A stretch of DNA of 64,000 nt from a virus. Location: the IMG/VR virus record IMGVR_UViG_3300023199_000051, positions 1 through 64,000 of that record; one strand, written 5' to 3'. Position numbers and translations under genes: made by a program. This document shows positions 2,757-64,000 of the stretch, piece after piece (the first letter of the stretch is position 1; each line of letters opens with the position of its first letter). Below the pieces are notes generated by a model, which worked only from the letters and a program-made list of their open reading frames with translations, ran no database searches and was not told the origin of the DNA.

Positions 2757-3214
2757 AGCGGGTTGGAAGCCGCGTCTACCTCCATCGTGGTGCCCTCCAC
2801 GAGCTGACGAACGCCCAGCAGCAGACGGTGGAAGCAGCAGCGGATCACCTGCTGGTGTCGGGGTGGGACATTGTACGGCTCAACCTGGACTTGCAGGCGG
2901 TCATGTTCGGGTGGACCACGAGCTGGGACACCGACCCCCACCCGAAGCTCCAGCAGAGCCAGGTGGTGCACAAGGTCCGAGGGCGGTGGGTGGCGCAGCC
3001 GCGTGCGCACTACAAGGATCGGCCCGTCTACCACCGCAAGGACTTGATGGTGGCCAAAGACCATCCAGACCGGGAGCTGTTTGCCAAGCTCACCAGGCAG
3101 GAAGCAGATGCGGGCCTGCTCGGCCGCCCGGACATCGGCCGTGAATCGTCTTGGGAGCGCCTGCTCGAACAGGAAGGCTGGAAGGTGGTCGGGCATAGGC
3201 TTGTGCGGCGCTAG
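2753..3214 (+). CDS. hypothetical protein
   Basis: 153 residues from GTG in a GTGA overlap with the regulator upstream. The sequence is rich in His, Lys and Trp (VHKVRGRWVAQPRAHYKDRP; WERLLEQEGWKVVGHRLVRR) and looks like a compact alpha/beta domain. It shares a transcript with the tandem ribbon-helix-helix protein, so the two may act together. I do not recognise a family, and no catalytic motif is clear. Confidence 0.6.
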   Translation: MKRVGSRVYLHRGALHELTNAQQQTVEAAADHLLVSGWDIVRLNLDLQAVMFGWTTSWDTDPHPKLQQSQVVHKVRGRWVAQPRAHYKDRPVYHRKDLMVAKDHPDRELFAKLTRQEADAGLLGRPDIGRESSWERLLEQEGWKVVGHRLVRR

Positions 3215-39047: not shown

Positions 39048-39833
39048 ATGCCTGCGATCATCCACCCGAAGTTCATCTACATCCACGTTCCGAAGTGCGG
39101 CGGCTACTACGTAGTCGAAGCGCTGAAGCGTGCTGGGATCATCGACCCAGAGCACCTGGTTGCCGCACCTACACACGTCAGCCTCTCGGATCTGTACCAG
39201 CTGTACGGCGCTGATCGCGGCCTGCCTGTGCTGGGAGGTGTCCGCAAGCCCCCGAGCTGGTATGCCTCATGGGTCCGGTACTTCTCGTGCCCTCCTGGTC
39301 ACAAGGGACCACCAGCATGGCCAGAGGCCCAGCGTGTGTGGGCTGCTGGCGGGCATGACCCAGTGCAGCTGATCAGCGCCATGTCCGACCCCACTCGCGC
39401 TGGCGTCCCCCACGAAGCCCAGCTGTACTCGGACTACACACTGCCCGTGATGTTCGGGGGCGGCTTCCGCGAACCGCTCGACGGGATGCGGCGCTGCAGC
39501 ATCGGCCTGTGCACCTGGTTCCATCTCTACGCCTTCTCCACAGTGCAGCACCCTCCTGCCGAGCTGGGCGCATGGCAAGACACCGTCCGCCTCGACCACG
39601 CGCTCCATACCGAGCAGCTGTCCTGGAACCTGAGCAAGGCCCTGGCCCGACTTGGCATCCGAACCGACCAGGTCACCCGCGCCATCAACACCACACCGAA
39701 GCAGAACACGACGGCCTCGCATGACACCGCGGAGGACAACCCGTGGCGCGTGCGCCCCGAAGACCTGCCACCTGGCCTGGTCGATCAGATCATGCAGCGT
39801 GACCGCTTCATTGTGGAGCGGTACTACCGCTAG
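39048..39833 (+). CDS. sulfotransferase-like protein
   Basis: 261 residues. FIYIHVPKCGGYYVVEAL (residues 9-26) matches the PAPS 5'-phosphosulfate-binding loop (PK-x-G-G), with Lys16. GVRKPPSWYASWVRYF (64-79) fits the 3'-phosphate-binding motif, with Arg66 and Ser70 or Ser74. A distal helix region is less conserved. Sulfotransferases move sulfate from PAPS to carbohydrate, peptide or small molecules. In a phage the target might be host surface glycan or a virion component. Two PAPS-reductase-like PP-loop proteins occur in the same genome. Confidence 0.75.
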   Translation: MPAIIHPKFIYIHVPKCGGYYVVEALKRAGIIDPEHLVAAPTHVSLSDLYQLYGADRGLPVLGGVRKPPSWYASWVRYFSCPPGHKGPPAWPEAQRVWAAGGHDPVQLISAMSDPTRAGVPHEAQLYSDYTLPVMFGGGFREPLDGMRRCSIGLCTWFHLYAFSTVQHPPAELGAWQDTVRLDHALHTEQLSWNLSKALARLGIRTDQVTRAINTTPKQNTTASHDTAEDNPWRVRPEDLPPGLVDQIMQRDRFIVERYYR

Positions 39834-40267
39834 GGCTGTCCTGGCGGGCGTCCAGGAGTCTGCTCTGCTGGCTCGCCTTCAGGCGCTTCACCCTCGTCTG
39901 ACGCCTGCACGGGTGCTGTGCTCACCGAGCCGAGCCCGAAGGGCAGCTCGATGGTGCCGCGGCCCACACCGATCATCGCCAGCGCAGCGAGGGCGGCCAT
40001 CATGACGAGGGAGGCCAGGAGCATGAACACCATCTTGCGGAAGCGCTCGGCGTCTTCCCGCGCCTGCTTGTTCTGCTTCTCCAACAGCGAGATCACGCGG
40101 TCAGTGGTCTCGTCTTCTCGCTGGTTGCGCTCCTTCTCGGCCCGCTTCGACTCGATGAACTGGCGCTTGACGAAGCCAGTCCACCCCTTCTGCCTCGTCG
40201 GCTCAGGCTCCGGCGTCGCTACCTCGCCTGCGGTTTCCGGCTCGCTGCCTGCATCATCGGTACCCAC
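39830..40267 (-). CDS. coiled-coil membrane protein
   Basis: 145 residues from GTG with AGGAGAG upstream. A basic/acidic coiled coil (residues ~35-78: KRQFIESKRAEKERNQREDE) leads into one strong membrane helix (~80-103: MVFMLLASLVMMAALAALAM), then an acidic Pro-rich tail. It lies 54 bases downstream of the giant polyprotein gene and may be co-transcribed. It overlaps the end of the sulfotransferase gene by four bases. Confidence 0.6.
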   Translation of the reverse strand: MGTDDAGSEPETAGEVATPEPEPTRQKGWTGFVKRQFIESKRAEKERNQREDETTDRVISLLEKQNKQAREDAERFRKMVFMLLASLVMMAALAALAMIGVGRGTIELPFGLGSVSTAPVQASDEGEAPEGEPAEQTPGRPPGQP

Positions 40268-40321: not shown

Positions 40322-43300
40322 TCAGCCGTCTAGCCGGTAGATCACGCCCCCAGATACCCGGCCCTCTATGGGGAGCTTGAGCTTGACCTTCCGCTGGTAG
40401 GTTCCTCGTGAAGTGCGGCCCGTCTTCACGTCAGAGCGAACCGTGATGAAGGCCGCTCCACCCGGCTTGAGGCGGTCCCGAATCTCGCGCAGCAGTCCCG
40501 CTTGTGCCTTCTTCGGCACCGTGTTGAAGACGTAGGTGGCGAGGACCGTGTTGTACTTCGTGTCTGGCAGGTCGAAGGGACCATGGCAGGGGTCGTAGCC
40601 CTTCACCTGAAGACGCTGTCCTCGCAGCCACTCCACATCCGCACCGTGCCCCGAGCCGTAGTCGAGCACCGGTCCGCGAATCAGACCACGCTCATGCAGC
40701 CACCGCACAGGCGCCGAGGACCCGTTGCGGTGCAGAGCAGTCGGACACGACCGGTCGAGGTCCGCTTCAGTCTGCGCAGCAGGCAGCCGTTCGATGGGGC
40801 CAAGGCCCTGCGCGATTTGGTCCTCGGCCTGGCTATGCGCGTGCAGGTGCTTGGTCAGCTCACGAATCTGCAGCACCGGTCTCGCCCCACCTTCAGCCAG
40901 CGCCTCGACACTGCGTAGCATCCGAAGCAGGGGGTCATGCTGCGCCACAAGCGCATCAAAGGCGCCGGGCCGCCCCAGCTGCTGTTCCAGCATTGGGAAG
41001 ACATCATCTTCCTCGCCGACGAAGTGCTGCTCGCAATCGACCCGGAGCGCGCGCATGCACTTGGTGACCCGCTCCCAGTCGCCGGCCTCCGCGTACCGGA
41101 TCAGCGCAGCACACATGCCACGGATCTCATCATGGTCGTCGGTCAACCACTTCACCGGGTTGGAACCAGGAACATAGGGGCACTTCTCCACCCCAGAGTG
41201 TCCACTCTTGTAGGCCGCGGCGACCTGCTTCAGTGCTTGCTGTGCAGGAACACCGTCCTTGATCATCTTGCTCTGCTCGCGCGCCAGCTTCGTGACGGGC
41301 TCACCGATGATGTCCTCATACGACAGGCCGGCACGACGGGCCACGTCGTAGTTGTGCCGCCGTACCGGACTGAAGGTGTCGTCCAGCGTCTGATCTGTCA
41401 GGGGGCCCATCGGCTGCACGTCAACCCAGTGCGGGCCGCCGTACTCCTGGTGGTGCTCGGGGTGGTGCTGTTGCGCCTTCACCTGCTGCGCATACCCACG
41501 CTGCACCCTCTTCACGAAGGGGGACTCCTCGATCAGATCGACCCCCCAGCCCCACTCGCGCTCATGAGACTCGCCGAACTTCGGCCGGATGGTGATGACC
41601 ACTGGCACGGCCGGCAACCCGAGCTGCATGGCCGCCGCGGCGCGGTGCCTTCCCTCGTGACTCGTGATCTGCTTCTTGTCCCGGTCGTACTGCATCCACG
41701 GCACCGGGAAGCGGTCGCCAGACCGCATGGCCTGTGTGTACTGCGCCACCTTGTCAGGCCGAAGGATATCCACGAGATGCTTCAAGGGGGTTGAGGTCAG
41801 CTCCAGGAAGGCAGTCGGCTTCAGGAGGACGTGCACCGTGTTCCGGTCGTCGTACACGATGGGGATGTTGCGCCTTCGATCTTCATAGTCGAACTGCGGG
41901 GGCACCACCTCCGGCTTGTCCTTGAACCACAGCCGCGGCGCCATCTCGGAGATGAAGGTGTAGCGGAGCGGATCTTCAGAGGGCAACGCCTCAACCGACT
42001 CCTTCAGACGCCCAACGGCCGCTGGGATGGTGTCAAGTCCGTAGACCTGCGCGACGGCGCTCCGATGCCAACCATCCCAGATGCCGATCGCCTGGCCCCT
42101 TGGGTCCTCTATGACGACGATCTCCTCGATGTCACCGCGGCGGATTGCCTCTGCCATAGCCGCAGGGTCGTAGCCCCGCTGCTCGTACGCCCACTGCTCC
42201 TCCTCGAACCATTGCTGCCAGTCGTTGAGGTGGTCGAGCTTTGCAACGGGGTACCGCTCCACGCGCCAATCCATCTCTGCGGGATCGGCCTCTGGTGGGT
42301 TGTCGTAGCGGTACGCAGACGCCCACTCGATCTCCTGTGCGGTTGCAGCGCGTGACGCTCCAGCCGGCAGCTTCTCGATCGGCACTGACGCTTGCTGATG
42401 CACACGCCAGGCAGTCACCTGCGCAAATGGGTATTCCTGCGAGTCAGTAGGCACCCAGACATCGAGAACCCACTGATCAGCTCCAGCTGGAGCCCCATCC
42501 GGCTCTCCGGGCCGGATGACAGACGCCCTGATCTGAGCTTCGGCCATCGCTAGGGGCAGGTAGTCCGATTCGTCGGTTGTGGGGCAGAGCCAGCTTCCCC
42601 ACTCTCCTTCTTCCGCCTCCCACGGGGGCTCCTCAGCCCAGCCTCCCCACCCTCGCAGCAGACAGCGCTCACCCCAACCCTCAGTGGTGACCACCCACCC
42701 ATCTTGCAAGTGCTGCTGTGTCTGAGTGCCAAGGGGTATGGACGCGCCATCAACCCCCCTCACAGCACCTAAAACGGCGCCCCACACCGTATTCGGAACG
42801 CCTGAAGGGCGCCTCTTAGGTAGTCCAGCACTTCGGTGGAGAGGGGCATAGGATCTCTGACCACCACCAACCTCGCGCATCTCCTCGAAGTAAGGGGCTG
42901 CTTCGTCCACTGCCGCTTCTACAGTAGCAGCATCGAAGCTGCGCTCAGACGCCCCCTCGATCTCCTGTGCGGTCGCGGCGGCGGGCACAGCGGTAGCTGC
43001 AGCTGGAAGGCAGTCCCGCCCATCGAAGCAGATGCCAGAGTCGAGCACATCTTGAGCTGGAAGGGCCTCGACACCCGACTTGAACTGCTCCAACTGGATG
43101 ACGGGGATGTACCGCAGTCCCAACAGGCGAGCAGCGAAGGCCCGATGCCGTCCATCTACGAACTGGCCGTCGACGAAGATGATGGGCGGCATCTGCATCG
43201 AGGGGGCTTCACCCATGTTCACACCGGCAGCGCGCCAGGCTTCGCGGGCGAAGTAGGGAGAGTCGTACTCCAGCTTGACAGCTGGCTGTTCCCACTTCAA

Positions 43301-44938
43301 GGGGTAGGCGTCTTCCAGCCAGGTGTTCAGGATCTCGCCGGCGCTGCTATGCGGCCCGAGCCCGGCGGTCTGGAGTACCTGCACGATCTCCATGACGGCC
43401 GCGGGGCCCCGCTCGTCCCAGTGCTCCTCGGCGTCAATGTTGGTGGGCATACCCTGTGAGGTGTCTGCACCTGGAAAGTGCTTGCGGATCTCACGCCACA
43501 CCTCATCCATGGGCAGGGCATCCACTGTGACGCGCGTGTCCGAAGGTAGGAAGGCAACGCCGTAGTCCGGGTCTGGCGGGAGCCCGACGTCATCGGTGAG
43601 CGCCTGGAGGATGAACCCGTCCTCCTGGAAGTGCTGCGGCAGGTCGCCCCACCGGATCGTGCGAGATGTTGCAGTGGGCAGCGTCTCGATACCCAGCTCG
43701 CGGAGTAGGGCGTCGTCCTCTGCAGCCTGGGCCTCCACCTTCAAGGCGTGCGCCATACGCATCCAGTGCAGCTCTTCTCCAGACAGCCCCAGCGTTCGCA
43801 ACTCCCCGGCGCTCAGGTCGGTGCCCAGCTCGGGCACGTCGGACCCGGGGGCGTGGCTCACGCCCAGGTCCGTGATGCGCCACTCCCCAGCCGCGTTCCG
43901 CATCACGTTGCCGCCACGGATGTCGTCGGTCCACACCCCGCGCTCAGCGAGCTGTACCAGGGCGCTCCAGAGCAGCCTCACGTTGTCCTCGATGTTGGGG
44001 GCGAAGTAGGCACTCGCCTTGGCAGTGAAGACTTCCACACCCCTACGACTGTGGCGGCCCTCGACAGCTTCGCGTGCGTCGTGCGCCATGCGACGACCGT
44101 GGTTGTCGAGGTAGCGTTCCCCCGATGATGACAAGGGCTCCAAGTGCTCCTGTACGACACCATACAGACGTCTAGGACCCTGGTACACCGATGGAAGCTC
44201 GACCCCCGGCAGTGTGGAAGGGAAGGCGAACACCAGCGGTGCCCGAGCAACGCCCTTGATACCGAGACGTCCAACGAAGGCCCAGGCCGCAGCGTCGGTG
44301 GGATCTCCGGTGATCTTCAACACCCAACCAGGATAGTCAGGCAACGCATAGGCACAGCCGTAGTTGCCGCAGCCGAGCGCCATCGGGTTGTCGTAGCCGA
44401 CGTCGAGGTCGTAGGGCTTACGCTGGAGCATGATCAGGGCGGCGCGCTGCCACTTGTTGAAGTTGTCGCTGCCCCAGTCATGCTTTCCGAGCCCCCGCGA
44501 TTCGGCATAGGTGCGGGGATTGCCCTTTGGAGGGGCGCCACGAACGGGCAGCTCCTCCTGCCTCTTCGCATACCGCTTCAGCTTCGCTGGCTCTGGTGAG
44601 TAGGCCCATGCCGCCAGGGCCAGGTGCCGGCGGGTGGGGCGGCCGTCGTCCTCCCACAGCGGCTCACGGCCCTCCTGAACCTGTGCCATGTGGCGGGCGA
44701 TGAAGGCGTTGCGGCGACTGCGCCAGTGCTGACCGCTGTGACTGTCTTCGGTGAGCTTGTCGGGGTCACCATCAGCGCGGCGGTACGCGGCGATGAAGCC
44801 TCGCTTGCTCCGTGCAACCTTGCTCACTTTGCGATCCTGCATCTGCGGGACCAGGGCTTCGACCATGGTGAGTGGCAGCCATGCACGCTCGCCGGCCGGC
44901 AGCCCCTCGGTCGTCGTTGCGGTGGAGATCAGCTTCAT
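40322..44938 (-). CDS. multidomain polyprotein: kinase-like, ParB/Srx-like, hemerythrin and methyltransferase domains
   Basis: 1538 residues from the ATG at 44938. Order: helical N-terminus; kinase-like domain ~180-365 with loop GCGNYGCAY (189-197), VLKITGDPTDA (Lys208), hinge VVQEHLEPL, catalytic-loop-like DDIRGGNV (338-345) and DLG (357-359); ParB/sulfiredoxin-like modules at ~583-616 (DGRHR), ~937-976 (DGWHR) and ~1092-1118 (EGRHR); hemerythrin HHE region ~1258-1380 (H1269, H1305, E1309, H1334 and further His); SAM methyltransferase ~1400-1538 (VLDYGSGHG, GYDP). Boundaries carry IETLPT (417), VEALPA (623), IEKLPA (854), VEALPS (982) and IERLPA (1382). TAQEIE recurs twice. This looks like a processed virion-associated polyprotein. 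Confidence 0.8.
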   Translation of the reverse strand: MKLISTATTTEGLPAGERAWLPLTMVEALVPQMQDRKVSKVARSKRGFIAAYRRADGDPDKLTEDSHSGQHWRSRRNAFIARHMAQVQEGREPLWEDDGRPTRRHLALAAWAYSPEPAKLKRYAKRQEELPVRGAPPKGNPRTYAESRGLGKHDWGSDNFNKWQRAALIMLQRKPYDLDVGYDNPMALGCGNYGCAYALPDYPGWVLKITGDPTDAAAWAFVGRLGIKGVARAPLVFAFPSTLPGVELPSVYQGPRRLYGVVQEHLEPLSSSGERYLDNHGRRMAHDAREAVEGRHSRRGVEVFTAKASAYFAPNIEDNVRLLWSALVQLAERGVWTDDIRGGNVMRNAAGEWRITDLGVSHAPGSDVPELGTDLSAGELRTLGLSGEELHWMRMAHALKVEAQAAEDDALLRELGIETLPTATSRTIRWGDLPQHFQEDGFILQALTDDVGLPPDPDYGVAFLPSDTRVTVDALPMDEVWREIRKHFPGADTSQGMPTNIDAEEHWDERGPAAVMEIVQVLQTAGLGPHSSAGEILNTWLEDAYPLKWEQPAVKLEYDSPYFAREAWRAAGVNMGEAPSMQMPPIIFVDGQFVDGRHRAFAARLLGLRYIPVIQLEQFKSGVEALPAQDVLDSGICFDGRDCLPAAATAVPAAATAQEIEGASERSFDAATVEAAVDEAAPYFEEMREVGGGQRSYAPLHRSAGLPKRRPSGVPNTVWGAVLGAVRGVDGASIPLGTQTQQHLQDGWVVTTEGWGERCLLRGWGGWAEEPPWEAEEGEWGSWLCPTTDESDYLPLAMAEAQIRASVIRPGEPDGAPAGADQWVLDVWVPTDSQEYPFAQVTAWRVHQQASVPIEKLPAGASRAATAQEIEWASAYRYDNPPEADPAEMDWRVERYPVAKLDHLNDWQQWFEEEQWAYEQRGYDPAAMAEAIRRGDIEEIVVIEDPRGQAIGIWDGWHRSAVAQVYGLDTIPAAVGRLKESVEALPSEDPLRYTFISEMAPRLWFKDKPEVVPPQFDYEDRRRNIPIVYDDRNTVHVLLKPTAFLELTSTPLKHLVDILRPDKVAQYTQAMRSGDRFPVPWMQYDRDKKQITSHEGRHRAAAAMQLGLPAVPVVITIRPKFGESHEREWGWGVDLIEESPFVKRVQRGYAQQVKAQQHHPEHHQEYGGPHWVDVQPMGPLTDQTLDDTFSPVRRHNYDVARRAGLSYEDIIGEPVTKLAREQSKMIKDGVPAQQALKQVAAAYKSGHSGVEKCPYVPGSNPVKWLTDDHDEIRGMCAALIRYAEAGDWERVTKCMRALRVDCEQHFVGEEDDVFPMLEQQLGRPGAFDALVAQHDPLLRMLRSVEALAEGGARPVLQIRELTKHLHAHSQAEDQIAQGLGPIERLPAAQTEADLDRSCPTALHRNGSSAPVRWLHERGLIRGPVLDYGSGHGADVEWLRGQRLQVKGYDPCHGPFDLPDTKYNTVLATYVFNTVPKKAQAGLLREIRDRLKPGGAAFITVRSDVKTGRTSRGTYQRKVKLKLPIEGRVSGGVIYRLDG

Positions 44939-44945
44939 AGAGACC

Positions 44946-44951
44946 AATCTA
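44946..44951 (-). promoter_or_regulatory. candidate -10 (TAGATT), leaderless geometry, for the polyprotein gene
   Basis: On the minus strand TAGATT is followed by seven bases and the ATG at 44938. A divergent TACACT serves the gene at 45000, so the two transcripts would start ~62 bases apart. Confidence 0.4.
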
Positions 44952-60696: not shown

Positions 60697-61773
60697 CTAA
60701 CCGGCATGCAGCACAGGTACGCGCGTGCTTGGTCCCGATGAGAATCCGAGATCGACGTAGACCAGCTCGCGGACGCCCGAGCTGCTCACACGGGCCATGA
60801 CGTTGTCGCTATGACCATCGGTGTACTCGATGCCCAGGTCGTACATGCAGTCGAGGGCCACCACCAGCGATGACACCTCAGTCCCCCCACGCCACGGAAT
60901 CAGGTAGTCGAGGATGCTACTCGGTGCGTCGTCCATGGCCTCCTCAACCAGCTCCTCGTACTCGTCTTGGGTCATGTCTCCACCTTCCACGTCGGCACGG
61001 CTGTCGTCCAGCGCCCACTCATCGACCCAGTCCTTCTCCCGCTTCGTCAGGGGTTCTAGCGGCTCCATGAGGATGGCATACAGCCCGGAGTCACTGAGGC
61101 CGTACACCGCGTAGATATGCACCACTCCCAGGCACTGTCCGGCCTGCATCACGGTGTGCGCATTGGCGGCTTCGGTCGGATCCCCTGTGATCTTGATTAC
61201 GTAGGGACGCCCCGCGAAGACGCACCCAAACATGCCGCACCCCTGCTGCCTCGGATCGAAACGGAAGCCCAGCTCCTGCAGCTCGAACAGGCCTCGCGCC
61301 GCCTTCTTCCTCCACGCCTTCGTCTCGCGCCGCACGGAGCCGGGCGGCTTCCTCTCACGGCCCTGGGGCGGCCTCGACCGGACGGTGCGTGTCTTGAGCT
61401 TCAGGCTCTCCACCTTTCGGCTCTCCATCCAGGCCCGTGCCTTGTCCTTGTGCTCACCCCTGGTGACAGTGGCCGTCACCTTCATAGCGGCCGCCACAGC
61501 TGCGGCGTCGTCGATCTGCCCGACCCCCGCCAGCCAGTCGGGGATGAGGTCGAGGGGCAGCACGACAGCGCCAAGGCCGGTCGCGATGGTTGCACGGGCC
61601 CACAGCGGTGTCTTGGGGTCCATCATCACGTAGTACAGCGCGACCATGTCGACGCCGAAGGGGACCTTGAGTCCTTGCCGCTTGATCCAGGGCCAGAACC
61701 GCTTCTTCACCTTGCGGATCAGCTTGCGGACCTTGCTCCTCTCCTGCGGTGTCATGTCGCGGTCAATGGCCAT
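60697..61773 (-). CDS. YkvA (DUF1232)-kinase-like fusion protein
   Basis: 358 residues from the ATG at 61773 with AGGGTGAG upstream. Residues ~30-95 match YkvA/DUF1232 (ALYYVMMDPKTPLWARATIA; LDLIPDWLAGVGQIDDAAAV). After a basic linker, a kinase-like domain starts with QQGCGMFGCVFAGRPYVIKI, has EPLEPLT as a hinge, and TDGHSDNVM plus VDLGFSS in place of the catalytic loop and DFG. The GCGxxGC loop is shared with two other proteins in this window. The pairing of YkvA and kinase folds is unusual. Confidence 0.75.
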   Translation of the reverse strand: MAIDRDMTPQERSKVRKLIRKVKKRFWPWIKRQGLKVPFGVDMVALYYVMMDPKTPLWARATIATGLGAVVLPLDLIPDWLAGVGQIDDAAAVAAAMKVTATVTRGEHKDKARAWMESRKVESLKLKTRTVRSRPPQGRERKPPGSVRRETKAWRKKAARGLFELQELGFRFDPRQQGCGMFGCVFAGRPYVIKITGDPTEAANAHTVMQAGQCLGVVHIYAVYGLSDSGLYAILMEPLEPLTKREKDWVDEWALDDSRADVEGGDMTQDEYEELVEEAMDDAPSSILDYLIPWRGGTEVSSLVVALDCMYDLGIEYTDGHSDNVMARVSSSGVRELVYVDLGFSSGPSTRVPVLHAG

Positions 61774-62038: not shown

Positions 62039-64000
62039 TCACAGCCCTTCGAGCTTGCCGACCCGCTTGCACTGGTAGCAACCTGATGCACGCTTGCACC
62101 GCACTCGGTTCCCCGCGTTCACTTGGACCTCGTTCAGCTTCTCACGGTGTCCCTGCTCGCAGGTCGTCCATACGCGAAGGGGCAGCGCTTCGAGTCGCCC
62201 GACATCGGCGCCGGCACTCTTGGACACGCCAAGGTCGATGATCTTCCAGTTGCCCTCGGCGTCCTGCATCACGTTGCCGCCGTGCAGATCGCCCCACTGC
62301 ACACCGACTTCGTTGTGTAGCGCCTCGATGGTCGAGATCACGCGCTTGTACTGCTGGAGCTGATCGCTGTCGAGCATGGCTCGGGCCCAGCCATCCAGGT
62401 TCTCCAGGGCCTCATCCAGCTCGGGATCTTGCCTGTCCCATCCACGGGTGAGGAGGATAGCAGCCAGGGACCCGGCTGCGGATGAGCCCAGGAAGTCCTC
62501 GGCTCTCCAGTCCAGCGGCTTCAGCTTCTGCTGTACGATGGCCCACAGCGGCTCGCCGTCAGGCATGGGAGTCAGCGCGTAGACGCAGTCGATGCGGGCC
62601 AGTGCGGGTAGCTCGGTCCAGTCTTCGTGATCGAGGACCACTTGTGCAGCAGCTGCCTCACTCCAGTCCGTTGTGAGCTTCACGACCTTGTCGGGATCAT
62701 TCGTCAGGTCGTAGACGCAGCCGTAGGTTCCACACCCGAGGTGCTTGTCTCCAAGCGGGTAGCCGTGCTTGGCGAGGATGCTCTTGGCCGCGCGCTCCAG
62801 CCGGGGCCACTGCGCGCGTCGCAGGTAGGCGCTGGTCGACACGACGTCATCCCCATCACCAGAGACGCGGATGCGATCGCCCCCTGCAACGCAGGCTACG
62901 GCACCAGCGGGCAGCCGCTCGATGGCACGCTGTACACCACGCTGCTGCCCCACGCGGTCTTCTGCCTCGCTGAACTTGCGGAAGGTCACCTCAACGGGGC
63001 CTTCGAGCGACCAGTCCCATTCCCAGTCCCGGGTGCCGCTTCCGAAGGCGAAGCCCGTGTCGAAGGTGACGCCGAGCCGGCGCAGCAGCTGCTCGACCTC
63101 GAAGAGGGTGCCCAGCTGCTCGCGGGTGAGGTTGGGCCCGAAGCTGATACCGACATCGACCGGACGTCCACGGTCATCATGTGCGTGACCACGCCCCGAC
63201 TGCTCGGCATCCAGCAGCATCTCGGCGAGCCTGCCCTTGAGCCGCTTCTGTGCACCCCGACGCGCCTTGTGCTCAGTCCTGCCTCGGGCGACCATGTTGC
63301 CGTGCTGGTCATACACCACCGTGTACTTGCGCGTAGCGCCTACGCGGTAGCCTGGCGGTAGTTGCGGCTTCAGAGCGCTCTCGATGGAAGACTGCGGCAC
63401 GCGGAGCGCAGCAACCTGGTCTGTCACGAGCGTCGAAGCGTCGATGACGATCTCACCAGGCCGCGGGTCGACGGGCGGCACCATGCTGGCAAATGGGTAC
63501 GGGCTGCCTTGCGGTGGGAGCACGAACACGAGCTGCTGTTCAGTCTGTGGGTTCATCAGGGCCACGAAACCGCGGGAGTGCGGCGGCGGCTCCACGCGCA
63601 CGTTGAGGAGCTTGAAGCCCACCAGCGGCGGCTTTCGACCCTGCACGCGCTCGATCAAGTCTGACAGGTAGCCCTGCTGTGTCTTCGTGAGCAGATCGAC
63701 AGAGCCAGTCCCTACAGCCGCTCTCATGCGGGGGGTTGGGCTTGTCCCCGATGTCCCTCCGTACTCAGCTTCCAGGTAGTCGAGCCAGCGGTCCGGGAAG
63801 ATGGCCGTTGGGGAGGGGACACTCTTCCTGGGAGCCTTGGGCCGCTGCCGTGCCTTGCTTGTCGCGCCGCCTGGTAGCCCCTCCGCGTAGGCTGCGTACC
63901 TCAGTCGCTTCTTCACAGGCCGTACGACGACACCGACTGCGATGGGAGACGATCGGTGTCGCCAGATCGCATTGAGCGTGCTGGCACGCTTTCGCCACTG
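62039..64000 (-). CDS. kinase-like multidomain protein, 5' end outside the window
   Basis: The frame is open to the right edge (653 residues here), and the sequence upstream of the first possible GTG (63916) still looks coding (WRHRSSPIAVGVVVRP), so the gene probably continues. EGLPGG lies ~12 residues after that GTG and AIERLPAGA near the middle, resembling the polyprotein's junction motifs. The kinase-like domain has LGCGTYGCVYDL, VVKLTTD, QWGDLHGGNVM (catalytic-loop-like D-x-H-G-G-N) and IDLGVSK. The end has REKLNEVQVNAGNRVRCKRA and CYQCKRVG, a possible zinc knuckle. Confidence 0.75.
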   Translation of the reverse strand, partial: QWRKRASTLNAIWRHRSSPIAVGVVVRPVKKRLRYAAYAEGLPGGATSKARQRPKAPRKSVPSPTAIFPDRWLDYLEAEYGGTSGTSPTPRMRAAVGTGSVDLLTKTQQGYLSDLIERVQGRKPPLVGFKLLNVRVEPPPHSRGFVALMNPQTEQQLVFVLPPQGSPYPFASMVPPVDPRPGEIVIDASTLVTDQVAALRVPQSSIESALKPQLPPGYRVGATRKYTVVYDQHGNMVARGRTEHKARRGAQKRLKGRLAEMLLDAEQSGRGHAHDDRGRPVDVGISFGPNLTREQLGTLFEVEQLLRRLGVTFDTGFAFGSGTRDWEWDWSLEGPVEVTFRKFSEAEDRVGQQRGVQRAIERLPAGAVACVAGGDRIRVSGDGDDVVSTSAYLRRAQWPRLERAAKSILAKHGYPLGDKHLGCGTYGCVYDLTNDPDKVVKLTTDWSEAAAAQVVLDHEDWTELPALARIDCVYALTPMPDGEPLWAIVQQKLKPLDWRAEDFLGSSAAGSLAAILLTRGWDRQDPELDEALENLDGWARAMLDSDQLQQYKRVISTIEALHNEVGVQWGDLHGGNVMQDAEGNWKIIDLGVSKSAGADVGRLEALPLRVWTTCEQGHREKLNEVQVNAGNRVRCKRASGCYQCKRVGKLEGL

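Follow-up and report, generated by a model that had tools for sequence, protein, structure and literature searches.

A giant phage protein joining unrelated predicted enzyme modules, with a recurrent E-x-L-P motif near its joints

Phage proteins that combine several enzymes in one chain have been named polyvalent proteins, and the proposal is that they are injected along with the phage DNA (Iyer et al. 2017; PMC5512222). Kinase members and DdrB-type ParB members are among those described. Cutting of these proteins into units has been argued, mostly by built-in zincin peptidases, with splitting inferred from the peptidase domains themselves, and DdrB of phage P1 is cut before packaging (PMC5512222). 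Proteolysis is also known from phage heads. The capsid-targeting propeptides of T4 are 10-20 residues long (PMC5694885). In Salmonella phage SPN3US, apart from those in gp245 itself, all reported cuts by this protease take off N-terminal propeptides (PMC10052503). The cut rules are AXE in SPN3US and SXE in phiKZ (PMC10052503; PMC5694885).

Here we describe a giant protein, P0001 (gene g036), that invites comparison with both systems. The DNA analysed, hereafter the window, comprises the first 64,000 nucleotides (64 kb) of a 178,164-base IMG/VR virus record with a G+C content of 64.6%. The record holds phage-type replication and repair genes, a Sak4 gene and many unrecognised proteins, and it also codes for proteins of tail-fibre and minor-tail type. 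A terminase search of the record with two models gave no match, phrog_2 having touched only a helicase-type ATPase, and neither capsid nor portal was among the matches listed (the best 25 families, genes pooled). Because these three were not found, the virion context rests on the tail-type genes and the IMG/VR classification; the record may be incomplete or strongly diverged. The tail-type genes lie at 51-57 kb, 6-13 kb from P0001, which is outside any run of virion genes. P0001 and the next gene on the same strand, g035 (39830-40267; 145 aa with one hydrophobic stretch), form a pair standing alone on the minus strand. A second giant protein, g053, adjoins tail-type genes in the run g046-g053. 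The tail protein g048 contains the string HSHSIEDLPVG; the E-x-LP in it seems to be a distinct motif of fibre type, and we left it uncounted as support for the motif discussed below.

Several other features of the record deserve mention. A type I-C-like CRISPR-Cas system lies on the phage outside the window, at record positions 155793-163333 (L008:3793-11333). It includes a Csd1 match (156628-157647), Cas7 (158678-159454) and, in the same gene set, a Cas5d match; the helicase g110 adjoins these genes, and the array (162070-163333) has 17 repeats at a spacing of 72-91 bases, the final ones degenerate. At 134490-139451 (L007:490-5451) the record codes for a 1,653-aa protein that by eye resembles a family A DNA polymerase, apparently with two intein insertions. 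The neighbours g061 and g062 (89363-91886; L004:9363-11886) carry long Lys/Arg/Ser-rich, histone-like stretches, and neither has a PHROG match. The gene product g059 (81436-88989; L004:1436-8989) is a 2,517-aa DarB-like methylase-helicase with an intein that bears a LAGLIDADG endonuclease domain.

The P0001 reading frame (40322-44947, minus strand) is real: it is open over 1,541 codons from a TTG at 44947 and has a high coding score. A preliminary description of this DNA gave the protein 1,538 residues, which corresponds to the ATG at 44938. Residue numbers below follow the TTG start, and all features of P0001 are on the minus strand. Profile matches make two domain calls firm, a hemerythrin HHE domain (40814-41158, residues 1264-1378; PF01814, E 3.9e-16) and a methyltransferase (40436-40678, residues 1424-1504; PF13489, E 1.8e-11). 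The kinase-like domain (43826-44455, residues 165-374) is related to g052, is 31% identical to the C-terminal kinase of g053 (E ~5e-14), and reaches E 0.07 against the T7-like kinase PHROG 15752. The kinase call is supported because its g053 relative matches Pkinase (E 6.5e-4); g053 also matches a T7-type kinase PHROG (E 5.5e-7). Three candidate ParB-like modules are weak individually and resemble one another: module 1 (43082-43186, residues 588-622; phrog_8071, E 0.09), module 2 (41999-42217, residues 911-983; phrog_7527, E 0.027; PF02195, E 0.17) and module 3 (41573-41758, residues 1064-1125; phrog_21912, E 2e-4; phrog_1033, E 0.003). The domain list of the preliminary description stands, at these differing strengths. 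Near the N-terminus is a DUF6321-like region (44606-44791, residues 53-114), whose PF19846 match (E 6e-4) falls under the curated cut-off. Residues 628-857 (42377-43066), a module that starts with an Ala/Pro-rich linker, have no match in Pfam, PHROG, PDB or the phage collection. P0001 contains no zincin peptidase domain, and its sole HExxxH-like string is inside ParB-like module 3. An AlphaFold model computed without an alignment had a mean pLDDT of 37 and was unusable.

These features make it likely that P0001 is a polyvalent protein, that is, a phage protein joining unrelated enzyme modules. Polyvalent proteins carry 2-15 unrelated domains per chain, and P0001 combines kinase-like, three ParB-like, hemerythrin and methyltransferase modules. 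They are encoded by phages or conjugative elements, and P0001 is encoded in an IMG/VR record with tail-type, Sak4 and DarB-like genes. They also draw on a shared repertoire: the methyltransferase is present in other giant viral proteins, and the kinase-like module recurs in g053 and in L010. Since the methyltransferase occurs both alone and inside other giant phage proteins, it shows the module-trading pattern of the class. The earlier proposal of a phage protein that holds several effectors, with one motif repeated at the joints, is supported; the class and the idea of cutting were already known (PMC5512222). From the N-terminus, the predicted order is DUF6321-like/kinase-like, ParB-like, unrecognised, ParB-like, ParB-like, hemerythrin and methyltransferase. 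By analogy with the described members, P0001 is probably delivered along with the phage DNA or is active as infection begins, and we infer that its targets for modification would be host proteins, nucleotides or nucleic acids.

The pattern [VI]E-x-LP[AST] occurs at five sites in P0001: GIETLPT at residue 420 (43673-43690; Glu421), GVEALPA at 626 (43055-43072; Glu627), PIEKLPA at 857 (42362-42379; Glu858), SVEALPS at 985 (41978-41995; Glu986) and PIERLPA at 1385 (40778-40795; Glu1386). All five had been listed exactly before, at 417, 623, 854, 982 and 1382, which are the same positions less three. Their placement at inter-domain borders holds for three sites: Glu986, Glu627 and Glu1386 lie 3, 5 and 8 residues past the ends of ParB-like 2, ParB-like 1 and the hemerythrin domain (1378), respectively. 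For the other two a border position is plausible only. PIERLPA falls in the ~19 residues that separate the hemerythrin end from the start of methyltransferase homology, which we place at ~1397 from stand-alone relatives. Two further sites had been overlooked. A variant, SGVEKCP at 1251-1257 (GVE-KCP, 41177-41191; Glu1254), stands 10 residues ahead of the hemerythrin domain. An N-terminal copy, TTTEGLPAG (TTTE14-GLPAG; 44897-44908), follows 11 leader residues when translation is taken to begin at the ATG. Because the residues ahead of the motif vary (GIE, GVE, PIE, SVE and PIE) while E-x-L-P stays constant, we redefine the motif as E-x-L-P.

This junction motif is more than chance. The five-site pattern is expected ~0.07 times by 20,000 residue shuffles, in which the maximum was 2, an excess of ~70-fold (Poisson P ~1.6e-8; P ~1e-6 against the phage's own other genes). 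One could object that the motif was picked by eye from linkers rich in Ala, Pro and Glu. Comparable four-residue patterns do reach five recurrences in 2 of 500 shuffled copies, so that significance allowing for a post hoc choice of pattern is ~0.004. The shorter E-x-LP is found 7 times in P0001 against 0.68 expected and 6 times in g053 against 1.32, whereas all other called genes together are near background (19 against 13.3). Scaled to that genome background, P is 7e-5 for P0001 and 0.013 for g053, so the g053 excess is nominal only. The size of the excess for the specific motif, the rarity of the mirror image PL-x-E (one per giant protein) and the recurrence of the motif at a homologous domain of an independent protein make pure chance very unlikely.

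The independent protein is g053, which is 3,057 aa long (record 62039-71212, minus strand; the C-terminal part, 62039-64000, is in the window) and heads the minus-strand run of tail-type genes. It has a NUDIX domain at 2210-2324, a kinase-like domain at 2804-3007 and Pro-rich linkers. One E-x-LP is shortly ahead of the kinase-like domain (AIE-RLPA, 62906-62923; Glu2765) and another immediately past it (LE-ALP, 62180-62191; Glu3008), so that the two flank the relative of the P0001 kinase. Two more, at 2009 and 2444, lie one on each side of the NUDIX domain. The phage has a third kinase-like copy in g052 (60697-61773, minus strand), a stand-alone paralogue with DUF1232 and kinase-like regions, whose end coincides with that of the kinase homology.

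How the motif came to recur can be judged in part from the DNA. At the five sites, in order, proline is encoded by CCC, CCA, CCG, CCC and CCT, and leucine by CTG, CTT, CTG, TTG and CTG. The copies are therefore not recent DNA copies, and the motif is either old or conserved as protein sequence; recent duplication as its sole source is rejected. An older common origin is a separate matter. Recombination within similar linker sequences may have inserted modules, leaving E-x-LP as a functionless relic. One pair of linkers does hold a 35-bp duplication, 91% identical between its copies (42946-42980, encoding ...ATAQEIE..., and 42316-42350). In addition, the sites past ParB-like 1 and 2 align in a longer similar stretch, so that two of the five copies may be homologous, and over 40 bp the N-terminal site matches the Glu858 site at 77%, a similarity that is itself not significant. 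However, the 35-bp repeat is downstream of two motifs, beside and not on them, and the ORF has no other strong internal repeat in its DNA. The other copies use different codons for the motif, no significant DNA repeat spans them, and the domains ahead of the joints are unrelated. We consider shared linker ancestry unlikely as the account of the motif.

The preliminary description raised a different idea, namely that P0001 is a polyprotein from which cuts at E-x-LP would release several injected effectors. The cutter could be a head maturation protease acting after Glu, as was suggested there, or a metallopeptidase acting before Leu. The recurrence of the motif at several joints of two giant proteins is in line with cutting, and so is the existing proposal that polyvalent proteins are split into units (PMC5512222). 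With the ATG start, the N-terminal leader ends in Glu (MKLISTATTTE-GLPAG) and its 11 residues fit the length of T4 propeptides. Three of the five sites (GIE, GVE, SVE) fit the phiKZ-type rule (S/A/G)xE, but PIE, at the remaining two, fits neither phage rule, and no site fits the T4 rule (I/L)xE. The pattern (S/A/G)xE occurs 33 times in P0001, 11 of them inside domains. The cited rules constrain residues ahead of the cut, whereas in P0001 it is the x-LP after Glu that is constrained, and x-LP is part of no cited rule. The mapped SPN3US cuts yield N-terminal propeptides; of the seven E-x-LP sites in P0001, five are joints inside the chain and only TTTE-GLPAG would fit. Our data thus do not support cutting after Glu by a T4- or phiKZ-type head protease. 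The preliminary description suggested looking beyond the window for a prohead protease gene; an S78 protease was not found in the 178-kb record in a search whose controls worked. A parallel S77 search was silent for its controls too, and the record may be incomplete.

A peptidase acting in trans could still be drawn from the ORFs of the genome that bear HExxH (g004, g054, g055, g105 and g107), but at best these give sub-threshold Pfam peptidase matches, and some give none. As an observation apart, g054 and g105 (record 71663-74734 and 152363-153988) combine HExxH with a match to a GHKL-type ATPase domain and are possible metallopeptidase fusions. Also against cutting, the DarB-like g059, another candidate for injection, lacks E-x-LP. 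On balance, processing of P0001 into separate effectors at these sites is doubtful. The narrower proposal, in which a phage-encoded protease acting in trans (an HExxH ORF, perhaps) recognises E-x-LP and splits both giant polyvalent proteins into single effectors, is more doubtful still, and somewhat less probable than a linker relic. Internal translation starts, considered as a substitute for cutting, were judged unlikely, there being no Met closely after the motif at most joints.

No close homologue of P0001 was found in the phage, viral-contig or genome-contig collections. Phage-collection tblastn used the whole protein and four segments; viral contigs were queried with whole P0001, its C-terminal third, kinase and methyltransferase alignments, the g053 C-terminal third and a linker pattern; genome contigs were queried with whole P0001 and the kinase alignment. 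These searches returned distant kinase and methyltransferase relatives only, and since the single-protein scans require exact 8-residue matches, they may miss distant relatives. None of the 13 viral-contig matches to the linker pattern ATAQEIE was related. The methyltransferase module is found alone in large Vibrio phages and within several long viral ORFs. A related copy (30% over 79 residues) is carried by WBK39883.1, a protein of ~3,100 aa from Rhodobacteraceae phage LS06-2018-MD07 whose gene is two genes away from an 'internal virion protein'. Among the methyltransferase relatives compared, none has E-x-LP as a linker ahead of the domain; the TEGLPK string in L032, at the very start of its methyltransferase domain, looks unrelated. 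The motif thus belongs to the linkers of this phage and not to the domain.

The reading of the motif that we rank first, and to which we give about even chances, is that E-x-L-P is a constrained spacer or linker that is not cut. The modules of P0001 are joined by linkers built round E-x-L-P, and we read the motif as a lineage-specific junction element preserved at the protein level. An uncut spacer, cleavage, a linker relic and chance are alternatives for the motif, and the chances we assign to them do not bear on what kind of protein P0001 is. A motif at the joints of two polyvalent-type proteins in one phage offers exact, testable positions for splitting. If the trans-protease reading is true, E-x-LP would be the first sequence-defined processing signal for polyvalent proteins, and one that works without a built-in peptidase. 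If the motif is only a linker, P0001 still adds a hemerythrin module, of iron- and oxygen-type, to the enzymes proposed to be injected.

Several described systems resemble P0001 in part. The head proteins of phiKZ, SPN3US and T4 are cut after Glu, and many proteins of the inner head undergo processing and are ejected (PMC5694885, PMC10052503). In contrast to E-x-LP, their rules, AXE, SXE or (I/L)xE, have no downstream LP, and an S78 protease was not found in this record. Like P0001, DdrB and DarB of phage P1 are large, with either a ParB-type domain or a methylase-helicase. The cut in DdrB is thought to be due to its own C-terminal metallopeptidase, which P0001 lacks, and the relative of DarB here is g059, not P0001. 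WBK39883.1 shares with P0001 a related methyltransferase domain in a multi-domain protein near virion genes, but it has a single E-x-LP-like string in the ~2,090 residues read, and this is not ahead of the methyltransferase. P0001 also resembles the polyvalent proteins as a class. As in these, domains of disparate activity are joined in one polypeptide that a mobile element encodes. The published repertoire includes kinase-type and ParB/Srx-type domains, and a DarB-like methylase-helicase, itself a theme of the polyvalent class, is co-resident with P0001. The differences are that P0001 has no metallopeptidase domain, is not directly beside virion genes (phage-type members typically lie near late or virion genes), and has a recurring E-x-LP at its joints and a hemerythrin domain; the text of PMC5512222 does not contain the word hemerythrin. 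The hemerythrin module and the repeated junction motif appear to be new for polyvalent proteins.
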